Shown: piece after piece, positions 3,061 through 6,946 of the stretch | How the letters are laid out: the number at the start of each line of letters is the position of its first letter | Position numbering within the stretch: the stretch's first letter is position 1 | DNA from: Gammaproteobacteria bacterium | GTDB lineage: Bacteria; Pseudomonadota; Gammaproteobacteria; Ga0077536 | Assembly: GCA_021773835.1 (NCBI GenBank) | Contig: JAJFJQ010000028.1 | Location: forward strand, 310,001 to 374,000 | Direction: 5' to 3' | DNA: 64,000 nucleotides | The notes under the pieces: generated by a model | The model's input: only the letters and a program-made list of their open reading frames with translations | Told to the model about the DNA's origin: nothing | The model's database searches: none | Position numbers and translations under genes: made by a program

Positions 3061-3168
3061 TGTCGTTCTATGTGCACATTTATGAATAGCACGACCGTGG
3101 CAATTGTGGGACAATCCTCGGCCTATTCCACCAGATTGCGATACGCGTCCATTATCGGAGGGGCCGGA

Positions 3169-4524
3169 GTGCCACAATCGACCGTCATGCGTTTCCTCTT
3201 CTTCATCGCACTAGCCCTCAGCTCGAGCATGGTTTGCGCGGCCGATGAAATCATTCGCCAAGCACAAGCCTTGGTTGATAAAGGCCAACCGCAAGCCGCT
3301 TATGAACTGCTCAAACCGATGGAAGAAGCGCGCGCCGGAGACCCGGAGTTCGATTACATCTATGGGCTTTCCGCACTCGATTCGGGCCGCCCGCTTGAAG
3401 CCGTCTTCGCGCTTGAACGCACGATAGACGCCGCGCCCGAAAACGGACCGGCCCGCGCCGAACTAGCACGAGCCTATCTCGCACTTGGAGATACAGACGA
3501 AGCAAAGGGTGAATTCGACAAGCTCAAGGACATGGATCTGCCATCGGACGTTGAGCGCACCATCGATAGCTACATCTCGTCGATCGATCAGTATCATGAT
3601 AGGTCGCGTTTGCGTTACCGGCCCTACGTTAAGATGGGGCTTGGCTACGACACGAACGTGAATAGCGCGACCGACCAAAACATTATCGCGGTGCCAGCAC
3701 TCGGCGGCTTAGCATTCAACTTGACCGACAGCTCGCGCGAATCCGACTCGCCGATCTGGGATCTTGGGGCAGGACTCAGGATCACCTCGCCGCTGGACTA
3801 TGCCAAGGGTCTCAGCCTATTCATTAACGGCGAGATCGATCATCGCCTCGCGCTCGATGAGGCGGACTTTTCGGCACTGTTGGCCAATGGTCAGGTTGGC
3901 ATTAACTGGCGTCGCAACGAGCGCAATCAGTTTCGATTCTCACTCGACGGCAATACGGTAAGGGTGGAAGGATCGAGTGCCGTGCGCAGCGACCGCGAAG
4001 TCATCGGCACCAGCGGCCAGTGGCAATACACCATGGACGAGGCGAATCAATTCACCCTGTTCGGACAGGCCTCACTGGTGCGCTATCCCGAACAGCGCGT
4101 GCGTGACGTTAATCGCTACACCGGTGGCGTCGGTTGGGGACATGCCTTTCTTGGCGCTGCCTTTGACCCGGTCATATTCATCAGCGCCTTTGGCGGCATT
4201 GAAGATGAGAAAAGCGAATCGCGCGGAAACCATTTTTCACGCGACTTCTTTGGTGTGCGCGGCGGGGGCCAGATCCGGATCAGAAGTAGAGGTACGCTGT
4301 TCGGCACCATCACCTTCCAGGCGAGCAACTACAACGGTACCGACCCGACCTTTCTCGATACCCGTGACGACGACTTCATCGACTTCAATGCCGGCTATCG
4401 CTATCAGTTCGACCGCAACTGGAGCGTGTCGCCGACGGTTGCCTACAACAATAACGACTCGAACTTCGCCACCAGCGACTATGACCGAGTAGAAGTTATG
4501 GTCATGGTGCGCAACGATTTTTGA
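3169..4524 (+). CDS. Slam-like outer-membrane protein: TPR domain plus beta-barrel
   Basis: 451 residues from a GTG at 3169, chosen because GGAGGGG (3157-3163) sits 5 bases upstream; an ATG at 3187 is the alternative, and longer in-frame starts back to 2794 overlap the ATP-grasp gene. Residues 1-24 are a signal peptide ending VCA. Residues 26-125 form TPR-like helices (ALVDKGQPQAAYELL, ARAELARAYLALGDTDEA). From about 148 to the end there are alternating amphipathic strands beginning YVKMGLGYDTNVN and ending in a terminal Phe (VRNDF), typical of outer-membrane barrels. TPR followed by a DUF560-type barrel is the plan of surface lipoprotein assembly modifiers (Slam, type XI secretion). The next gene, 16 bases on, may encode its cargo. 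Exact family unproven. Confidence 0.65.
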   Translation: MPQSTVMRFLFFIALALSSSMVCAADEIIRQAQALVDKGQPQAAYELLKPMEEARAGDPEFDYIYGLSALDSGRPLEAVFALERTIDAAPENGPARAELARAYLALGDTDEAKGEFDKLKDMDLPSDVERTIDSYISSIDQYHDRSRLRYRPYVKMGLGYDTNVNSATDQNIIAVPALGGLAFNLTDSSRESDSPIWDLGAGLRITSPLDYAKGLSLFINGEIDHRLALDEADFSALLANGQVGINWRRNERNQFRFSLDGNTVRVEGSSAVRSDREVIGTSGQWQYTMDEANQFTLFGQASLVRYPEQRVRDVNRYTGGVGWGHAFLGAAFDPVIFISAFGGIEDEKSESRGNHFSRDFFGVRGGGQIRIRSRGTLFGTITFQASNYNGTDPTFLDTRDDDFIDFNAGYRYQFDRNWSVSPTVAYNNNDSNFATSDYDRVEVMVMVRNDF

Positions 4525-4540
4525 GCGAAGGTAACGGCCC

Positions 4541-6946
4541 ATGAAAACATTCCGCCTGACGTTCATCACACTCACCGCGCTACTGTTCGCGGCAAACGGT
4601 TTACAAGCTCACGCCGCCGCCCATGCCGCCAAGATCGTCTATGCCTTCGGCCAAGTCCAAGCCCTCGGTGTCAGCGGCAAAGGGCGCCAGGTACGCAAGG
4701 GCGACCAGATCTTCCCTGGCGAAACAGTCGCAACTGTCCGAGGGCGCGCACAAATAAAATTCACTGACGGCGGCTTCGCCTCATTGCAGCCGAATACGCA
4801 GTACAAGATCGACGACTACAATTTTGAGGGCGAGGCCGACGGCAAGGAACGCAGCTTTCTAAGCCTTATCAAGGGTAGCGTGCGACTTGTCACTGGGGTG
4901 ATTGGCAGAGCCAACCGCAACAACTTTCGTCTGAAAACCAAGGTTGCAACGATCGGCATTCGCGGCACCTTAGGCAAAGCCAGCCATTGCGATAGCGACT
5001 GCGGAAATCTACCTGTTGGCACCTACATGCAAGGCTATGGCGGTAAGTGGCTTCTAAACTCAGGCAGCTTTTCCGGCCTAGTCGAATCCGGAGACGCCTA
5101 TCTATGTAACGGCGCCACTTGCAACCAGGTGCAAGGTGGGATTGTGCAACGTGAAGACGTTGGCGAATTTGAGGACGAGGAAGAAGACGAAGACCGGTAT
5201 CAGCAAGGCCAACAAGTCGACGGGGACGGGGTTCTTTGTGATCTCGGCGGCGCCTGTGGCGACAGCCTCGTATTGCTCGACCAGGTCGGCGCGCTCGCAT
5301 TTCAGGGCTCGCCCGGTGATGCGTCATCCGGACCGTTGATCGTGGTGACGTCGGCAAGCGGGCCAATCGCCGGTTTATTCTTTGAGGAGGACTCCGACGG
5401 CGAACATGTTCGATTGGAAACGATCAATATCGATCTCTTTCGCGCCGCTCTCAATGCATTTCCTGATGCGGATGTTGTGTCTGTCGGCAATTTAATCCTA
5501 GACGAGGTCGATCCGGAGATACTTGCTGACTTGCGCGCTATGCCCGCGTCGGTCGCGCCGGAGGATTTCGGACCAACCTCCGACGGCTTACTCACCAAGG
5601 GTCGCTGGACCAATGGTTATGTACTAGAAGTCGAAGCATGGCTCGATTCCGAAGACGTGGAGGTAACGCTTCGGAATTTGACCGATTTTCAAAGCGAACA
5701 TTTTATCTATGGGACACAGCCTGGGGAGATGCCGACTGGCGGCAGCGCCAGCTACCATTTCACCGGTAGTACGTTTTCGACTGCGACCGACGGGTCCAGC
5801 ATTGGCGAGGGCGTAACCGACGGCATGCTGACCTGGGATTTCGGGCTGGCGAGCGGTACGGTTGATTTCGACGTCGTGCACGGCCCAGAAACGTTTGATG
5901 TTAGCGGGACGATCGAGACCTCTGGCGTACATACATTTTTTGAAGACTCGGTATCCGCGTTGTCAAGCGGCATGTCTTATTCGGTGTTTTTACACGGGGT
6001 TTTCGCGGGCCCGAATCCCGGGGGGGCACCGAATGCAGCGGGTCTGTCCTATGTGATCGACATGTTCTCATCGCGCGGCTACGACCTTATCGGTACGGCA
6101 GGCTTCGGCTTGTGGGCGGATGATTCTACGTCGACGGCAGTTGTTACCGGCGTCATCGGCCCCGCGCCGACCGGCACTTACATCGCCGCCGGCCATGCCT
6201 TCGGGGATGGCTTCGTGAACAACAGTAATAGTTGGGATTTTATTGTTGGCGGTGCAAACACCGCTACGTTGATAGATTGGAGCGTCAAAGATTTTTTCGC
6301 GTCCACGTCTGATTTTGTATGCACCCCGAGCTGTAGTTTCGATTCGGGTACTGCGACCCAGGTCGAGTCTGGAAGCGTTGCGAGTATCGGTGCATCTTGG
6401 GTGGGTTGGGGACCCGGCCACACGTTCGTACACCCCGGCTTTGTATCTCCCCTTGGGCGTGCTCACGTGGTCAAACTCGATGCGCCGGCGACTCCGCTCC
6501 CGACCGGGGTGATGGGCACTTATACGTTGGGGGTTGGGGGTGGTACTGGTGCGACCACTCCGACAATGAACTCTGGGCCGGGCGGCGCGACCTTCGAAGT
6601 AGCGTCAAGCTCCACGCACACCTTGGTCGCAAACTTCGTCACCGGCAACCTGTCTTCCGTGCACGATATAGCCTTCCCAAGCGGCACGCTCGTGCATCTG
6701 CAGGGTAGCGTTGTCGGCGCCGCACTCGGCGTCCAGAACGTGATCAATTACAACCCTGCTCTAAGTACTATCACCGGCGTCGGCTGTACCGGATGCATAT
6801 TTGGCCACGACCATTTTACCTTCGGCGGTGTTGGTGCGACCCACGTCGTCGGTGCTGGGCAATTTAATACCAGTGGCGCTTCTACGGACGAGATAGCAGG
6901 CGCTTTCACCTTTATCCTTCCGGGGTCCCTCGCGCCCTATCCGTGA
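4541..6946 (+). CDS. Exported FecR-domain protein with two TbpB-like barrel segments
   Basis: 801 residues. A signal peptide (1-29, ending HAAAHA, no lipobox cysteine) is followed by a FecR-type domain (about 45-165) with GDQIFPGETVAT, FTDGGFASLQPNTQY and KVATIGIRGT. A very acidic linker follows (208-220). The Gly/Thr/Ser-rich remainder appears to contain two similar units. The first, near 396-490, starts MPTGGSASYHFTGS and ends AGPNPGGAPNAAGLSYVI; the second, near 652-801, starts LPTGVMGTYTLG and ends in GQFNTSGASTDEIAGAF. Both resemble the C-terminal eight-strand barrel of TbpB-type proteins, which Slam translocons recognise. This is not a sigma-factor regulator of the FecI/FecR kind: it has no transmembrane anchor and no sigma gene nearby. 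It is probably co-transcribed with the upstream barrel protein. Function unknown. Confidence 0.65.
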   Translation: MKTFRLTFITLTALLFAANGLQAHAAAHAAKIVYAFGQVQALGVSGKGRQVRKGDQIFPGETVATVRGRAQIKFTDGGFASLQPNTQYKIDDYNFEGEADGKERSFLSLIKGSVRLVTGVIGRANRNNFRLKTKVATIGIRGTLGKASHCDSDCGNLPVGTYMQGYGGKWLLNSGSFSGLVESGDAYLCNGATCNQVQGGIVQREDVGEFEDEEEDEDRYQQGQQVDGDGVLCDLGGACGDSLVLLDQVGALAFQGSPGDASSGPLIVVTSASGPIAGLFFEEDSDGEHVRLETINIDLFRAALNAFPDADVVSVGNLILDEVDPEILADLRAMPASVAPEDFGPTSDGLLTKGRWTNGYVLEVEAWLDSEDVEVTLRNLTDFQSEHFIYGTQPGEMPTGGSASYHFTGSTFSTATDGSSIGEGVTDGMLTWDFGLASGTVDFDVVHGPETFDVSGTIETSGVHTFFEDSVSALSSGMSYSVFLHGVFAGPNPGGAPNAAGLSYVIDMFSSRGYDLIGTAGFGLWADDSTSTAVVTGVIGPAPTGTYIAAGHAFGDGFVNNSNSWDFIVGGANTATLIDWSVKDFFASTSDFVCTPSCSFDSGTATQVESGSVASIGASWVGWGPGHTFVHPGFVSPLGRAHVVKLDAPATPLPTGVMGTYTLGVGGGTGATTPTMNSGPGGATFEVASSSTHTLVANFVTGNLSSVHDIAFPSGTLVHLQGSVVGAALGVQNVINYNPALSTITGVGCTGCIFGHDHFTFGGVGATHVVGAGQFNTSGASTDEIAGAFTFILPGSLAPYP

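Follow-up and report, generated by a model that had tools for sequence, protein, structure and literature searches.

A candidate type XI-like secretion unit pairing a Slam-like channel with a FecR-barrel protein in a gammaproteobacterial genome

What is the role of an outer-membrane channel gene that stands directly before the gene of an exported FecR-domain protein? Such a pair occurs on the forward strand of a 64,000-nucleotide stretch (the window, meaning the whole stretch that was analysed) of contig JAJFJQ010000028.1 from a gammaproteobacterial genome (GCA_021773835.1). Gene 1 (3169..4524; GTG start, alternative ATG at 3187) encodes a Slam-like outer-membrane protein of 451 residues with a tetratricopeptide repeat (TPR) domain, a 14-strand beta-barrel and a C-terminal Phe. 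Gene 2 (4541..6946) encodes a FecR-barrel partner of 801 residues, the proposed cargo, delineated from its sequence, Pfam and an iterated hidden Markov model (HMM). Between the stop codon of gene 1, whose last base is 4524, and the following ATG at 4541 there is an operon-like gap of exactly 16 bases (4525..4540). The initial annotation, which had described a TPR-barrel protein ending in Phe and, 16 bases later, an exported 801-residue protein with a FecR domain and an acidic linker, was accurate on all of these points. We read the pair, with a probability of about 0.62, as a two-gene secretion unit of the type XI (Slam) kind belonging to a separate, FecR-linked clade, in which the FecR-barrel protein would cross the outer membrane through the channel. 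The homology, the gene pairing, and the domain architecture and fold behind this reading are well supported computationally.

In the channel protein, residues about 25-146 (3241..3606) match Pfam TPR_19 (PF14559, E 3.3e-12) and correspond to helices of a putative periplasmic domain in the AlphaFold2 model. This model, predicted from a 54-row alignment, displays high confidence (predicted local distance difference test, pLDDT, of 93.4) and consists of seven helices followed by 14 long strands, which is also the strand number of type XI secretion system (T11SS) channels (PMC8406197). The barrel domain (residues 147-451; 3607..4521) is defined by these strands, by structural matches obtained with VIA and by a barrel-only hhalign comparison, and its C-terminal strands match a barrel family. 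With VIA, the best PDB matches of residues 146/147-451 are CymA (Z 22) and OmpG (Z 20.9), while the top match of the channel in Foldseek is BcsC. Neither Foldseek nor VIA places a Slam entry among the top PDB folds for the channel, so the structural comparison rests on the strand count and on 14-strand porins.

Comparison of sequence profiles is more specific about the family. The FecR-linked channel family aligned in hhalign to genuine Slams of the same class at 100% (E 1.7e-41) over 399 columns, spanning the TPR and the barrel and reaching the last residue. As a guard against the TPR part producing the Slam match, the barrel was also compared alone, giving 99.8% and a score of 197.5 between the FecR-linked family and Slam, 129 between this family and BBP2_2, and 82 between Slam and BBP2_2. 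A Slam HMM matches all 59 members of the FecR-linked family and outscores a BBP2_2 HMM in 56 of 56 full-length members, the window channel scoring 61.6 bits with the former versus 33.2 with the latter. At E<0.01, SlipAM matches 30/54 family members and TPR_Slam 13/54; the only SlipAM matches in the window genome are two channel paralogues (C68 and C71), both of which pass the cut-off. In a quick tree, the FecR-linked channels form one group (support 98), the Slams another (97) and BBP2_2 a third (100), and the FecR-linked channels are thus a sister clade rather than classical Slams. Judged by these sequence relationships, the window channel belongs to this FecR-linked sister clade and lies outside the classical Slam clade.

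The window channel and its family share with Slam/T11SS channels (DUF560, SlipAM; Slam1, NilB, HrpB) the N-terminal TPR, the 14-strand barrel and an end-to-end profile match, and in both kinds of locus the channel gene adjoins a gene whose product ends in an eight-strand barrel. The window channel differs from Slam in its separate clade, in falling below SlipAM detection and in having a near-obligatory FecR partner, which in the window has no lipobox.

This partner starts with a signal-peptide-like N-terminus, MKTFRLTFITLTALLFAANGLQAHAA (4541..4618), judged by eye and free of a lipobox in a pattern check. Its FecR core (residues 66-143; 4736..4969) matches PF04773 (34.6 bits, cut-off 24) and is followed by more than 600 residues, including the acidic linker EFEDEEEDEDR (residues 209-219; 5165..5197). 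Just past the core lies a closely spaced Cys pair (residues about 149-198; window about 4985-5135), which recurs in 22/54 partners and for which a disulphide or a metal site are candidate roles.

An HMM built iteratively from the partner proteins of relatives defined a C-terminal module of about 180-185 residues, present twice in the window partner: residues 347-534 (5579..6142; 135 bits over residues 348-531) and, at the very C-terminus, residues 613-801 (6377..6943; 70 bits over residues 614-799). The AlphaFold2 model of module 1 (53 modules aligned; pLDDT 93.1) has two leading strands and eight more. When this model was searched against the PDB with Foldseek, the ten best matches were all HphA (hemophilin; E 9.6e-6), TbpB, NHBA and HpuA, and nothing else came close to these Slam-type cargo barrels. 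VIA-align superposed the module on NHBA with a Z of 15.4 and a root-mean-square deviation of 2.8 over 149/152 residues, and on fHbp, TbpB and HpuA with Z of 12 to 13, the leading strands being covered too; the matches to OmpX (11.9) and Ail (11.4) cover the eight strands only. On the strength of this model and its matches, the C-terminal modules resemble eight-strand barrels of the TbpB type. Independently of structure, sequence comparison weakly supports the same relationship: hhalign placed the module with TbpB_B_D proteins at 75% (E 2.6e-5, 109 columns in register) versus about 0.1% for control families, and one sequence from genome G162 is matched by the module profile as well as by Pfam TbpB_B_D.

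The modules thus have in common with TbpB_B_D cargo (TbpB, NHBA, HpuA, fHbp, HphA) a C-terminal eight-strand barrel with extra leading strands, which may be single or repeated. Unlike this cargo, the window modules are missed by PF01298 and the window partner carries no lipobox, and its N-terminal part is a FecR domain where TbpB_B_D-type cargo has a ligand-binding handle. The initial annotation had anticipated a Slam-like channel distinct from unrelated outer-membrane families and a cargo ending in two repeated eight-strand TbpB-like barrels that both carry a P-T-G-x4-Y motif; it had also suggested searching other genomes for the gene pair and predicting the structure of each protein. The profiles, the models and the fold matches agree with it, and the partner has exactly two copies of the motif (residues 398 and 654). 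The HMM confirms both repeats, the first of which begins somewhat before (348) the proposed residue 390.

Recurrence of the pair was assessed by whole-genome searches, which replaced a scan of genome contigs whose patterns suited close relatives and which gave one relative only. The channel is present in 13/36 genomes of the order and 56/369 genomes of the class. In 54 of the 58 channel loci, the same-strand downstream neighbour is a FecR gene, spaced by -20 to +30 bases in 35 of these; among the four remaining loci, one channel gene is truncated and one lies at a contig edge. Genuine Slam loci used as a control have FecR in their 1.5-kb flanks in 0/12 cases and a TbpB-type barrel in 8/12, and BBP2_2 loci have FecR in 2/30, one of the two being itself a member of the FecR-linked clade. 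Conversely, 43 of the 46 class genomes that bear the module also have the channel. When the search was widened to the phylum, FecR adjoined most loci scoring higher with the FecR-linked clade, whereas loci scoring higher with Slam were without FecR and often had TbpB-type cargo. The pairing of channel and FecR exceeds chance. Separately, a distant TPR-barrel protein with 85.6 bits to the clade HMM, followed by a 566-residue protein without a Pfam match (L291, G000:C31, 3837-7151), is possibly another channel-partner pair.

Among the 54 partners, 41 carry the module according to the iterated HMM, as one, two or four copies, and it is visible by eye in one more (L150); of the partners that gave no match, three are truncated at the end of a contig. 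In complete module-bearing partners, the last copy extends to the C-terminus. One locus (L139, G265:C1, 5397-11501) shows a local expansion of the partner, with a 1334-residue FecR protein bearing four modules and then a second FecR gene with further module matches. In another (L123, G067:C1, about 3100-5808), in a one-contig genome, the module follows the partner closely but in a different reading frame, which could reflect a frameshift or phase variation.

How the pair would work can be proposed from these elements; the transport, the way in which the partner is recognised and where FecR ends up are what we infer here. Both proteins, with their signal-peptide-like starts, would be carried over the inner membrane by Sec, after which the channel would be inserted in the outer membrane as the predicted 14-strand barrel with its TPR in the periplasm. 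The partner would be kept unfolded in the periplasm, as TbpB is with Skp, and may be recognised through FecR, the C-terminal barrels or both; TbpB must be unfolded for Slam transport, and Skp helps (PMC9090332). The partner would then traverse the channel and, by analogy, its C-terminal modules would fold outside as eight-strand barrels. Since it has no lipid anchor, the window partner would either leave the cell or be kept on its surface by some other part. The FecR half could travel to the surface as a passenger, in line with the role outside the cell that the initial annotation had inferred, or could remain periplasmic as a signalling part; the latter is a serious alternative because FecR is constant, the barrels are variable and other lineages show links to CHASE2 and LysM.

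Several observations weigh against a type XI-like secretion unit. Pfam does not recognise the modules, neither of which matches PF01298 (TbpB_B_D) at E<=10, and the window channel itself has no SlipAM (PF04575) match at E<=1; the profile check against the SlipAM and TbpB families suggested by the initial annotation gave hhalign matches for the channel family and the module (100% to Slams, 75% to TbpB_B_D proteins) and no Pfam match for the window proteins. FecR partners without a barrel occur at L013 (in the window genome), L116, L117 and L125-L127, and the module match is absent from five genomes with barrel-less partners (G044, G139, G192, G252 and G345); several loci outside the class also have FecR partners without a module, with Pro/Gly-rich tails. 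The partners at L285 (7180-10242; 1020 residues) and L286 (6635-10255; 1206 residues), accompanied by channels of the same clade, have three modules each and Pro-rich stretches and are without a FecR HMM match, yet their N-terminus is FecR-like in degenerate form (92.8%). The fetched flanks of 11/58 loci contain CHASE2 genes, and such genes adjoin the pair in several loci outside the class (L277, L278, L280 and L281); two of them tested with Pfam comprise one cyclase and one hybrid kinase. Some FecR partners also bear an N-terminal LysM, detected by Pfam or read by eye; like the CHASE2 neighbours, it speaks for a periplasmic role in some lineages. Because FecR-only partners exist and L285 and L286 retain a degenerate FecR, FecR is the near-invariant element of the partner, the barrel modules varying from 0 to 4. 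The TbpB-like barrel as sole basis of the pairing was dropped once the barrel-less partners were found, since FecR partners without any module imply that the barrel is not the only reason for pairing. The rule described for cluster 1 T11SS cargo is a common C-terminal barrel behind an N-terminus that varies (PMC12282271). This rule is reversed in window-type partners, with a constant FecR N-terminus and variable barrels.

These features could instead suit a trans-envelope sensor, in which the channel would thread only the barrel modules outward or hold the partner at the pore, and a periplasmic FecR would signal to proteins of the inner membrane, for instance CHASE2 cyclases or kinases. The model for it is FecR acting for FecA in iron-citrate signalling. 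Besides the near-invariant FecR, kept in degenerate form at L285 and L286, the CHASE2 genes (cyclase or histidine kinase) and the LysM domains, it has parallels in the consulted portions of two reports, which describe Campylobacterota clusters of a CHASE2 cyclase, a FecR outer-membrane protein and a TPR protein (PMC9239204) and operons of LysM-FecR with a CHASE2 kinase (PMC5192318). In those portions, the systems share an exported FecR protein with the window pair and resemble some of its relatives in LysM, a nearby CHASE2 gene and a TPR protein in the cluster, but neither a Slam-like channel nor cargo barrels are mentioned. At the window locus itself, some features speak against a sensor: no CHASE2, kinase or sigma factor gene adjoins the pair, and the partner has no LysM or other anchor. 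Moreover, known Slam cargo crosses the outer membrane completely, N-terminus included. We treat the sensor as the main, if tentative, alternative explanation of the window pair, credible but not probable. Doubtful, too, is its extension to the whole Slam-like clade in Pseudomonadota, whose FecR partners would be surface-to-cytoplasm sensors with barrels outside, FecR in the periplasm and CHASE2 readers in some lineages; if true, a signalling device would have arisen from machinery for protein secretion. A different reading places the channel with the porins or polysaccharide exporters of the BBP2_2/PgaA/BcsC type and makes the FecR protein an unrelated periplasmic accessory. The window channel does match BBP2_2 (PF10082; 28.7 bits, cut-off 23.7), BcsC is its top Foldseek match, and midpoint rooting of the quick tree draws the FecR-linked clade nearer BBP2_2 than Slam. 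However, the barrel homology to BBP2_2 is weaker than that to Slam, which is the better match both full-length and barrel-only, and BBP2_2 proteins have neither a TPR nor a FecR-barrel-type partner, whereas the window partner bears the cargo-type barrels that are a hallmark of T11SS loci, making this reading improbable. An ordinary FecR-type anti-sigma regulator beside an outer-membrane receptor would likewise combine a FecR domain with an outer-membrane barrel partner, but is hardly tenable here: the partner's N-terminus resembles a signal peptide, where such a regulator would have a cytoplasmic anti-sigma segment, a sigma factor gene is missing beside it, its long extension past the FecR core is at odds with such a regulator, and the 14-strand channel with its TPR has no Pfam match to TonB-dependent receptors.

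Read as a secretion unit, the locus bears on a family in which all verified secretins fall in T11SS cluster 1 (PMC12282271) and known cargo is lacking for most sequence clusters. It draws attention to a widespread sister clade whose partner is near-obligatory and easily recognised, so that cargo and channel would be testable as a pair. FecR domains would be placed in a context other than sigma regulation, and barrels of the cargo type that Pfam misses would be present in genomes where they were previously not looked for. The word FecR is absent from the main texts of two T11SS surveys (PMC8406197 and PMC12282271), and we found no paper linking FecR with Slam or DUF560 in a search that left supplements and subscription papers outside.

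The genes adjoining the window pair are an ATP-grasp ligase-like gene and glnE. A promoter and terminator scan at the locus gave signals not above chance level, a plasmid search with the FecR-barrel partner as query returned no matches, and PDB sequence searches with the channel or the partner returned TPR matches only or nothing useful. The window genome (6.1 Mb) contains nine FecR matches and carries two further channel/FecR pairs (C68 and C71). An FHA-cyclase gene and a large repeat-bearing kinase gene lie upstream of the former (L012, 56-4345) and may connect it with signalling in this genome. In Legionella, a FecR-domain protein is listed as more abundant in supernatants of the wild type than of a type II secretion system mutant (PMC12239567). 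In a wider sense, FecR genes may go along with outer-membrane secretion: the window genome also has a FecR gene in a two-partner secretion (TPS) locus beside a ShlB/FhaC channel (L014, G000:C39, 3383-6572) and another beside a ShlB/FhaC channel and a TPS-domain exoprotein (L015, G000:C59, 3-5030).

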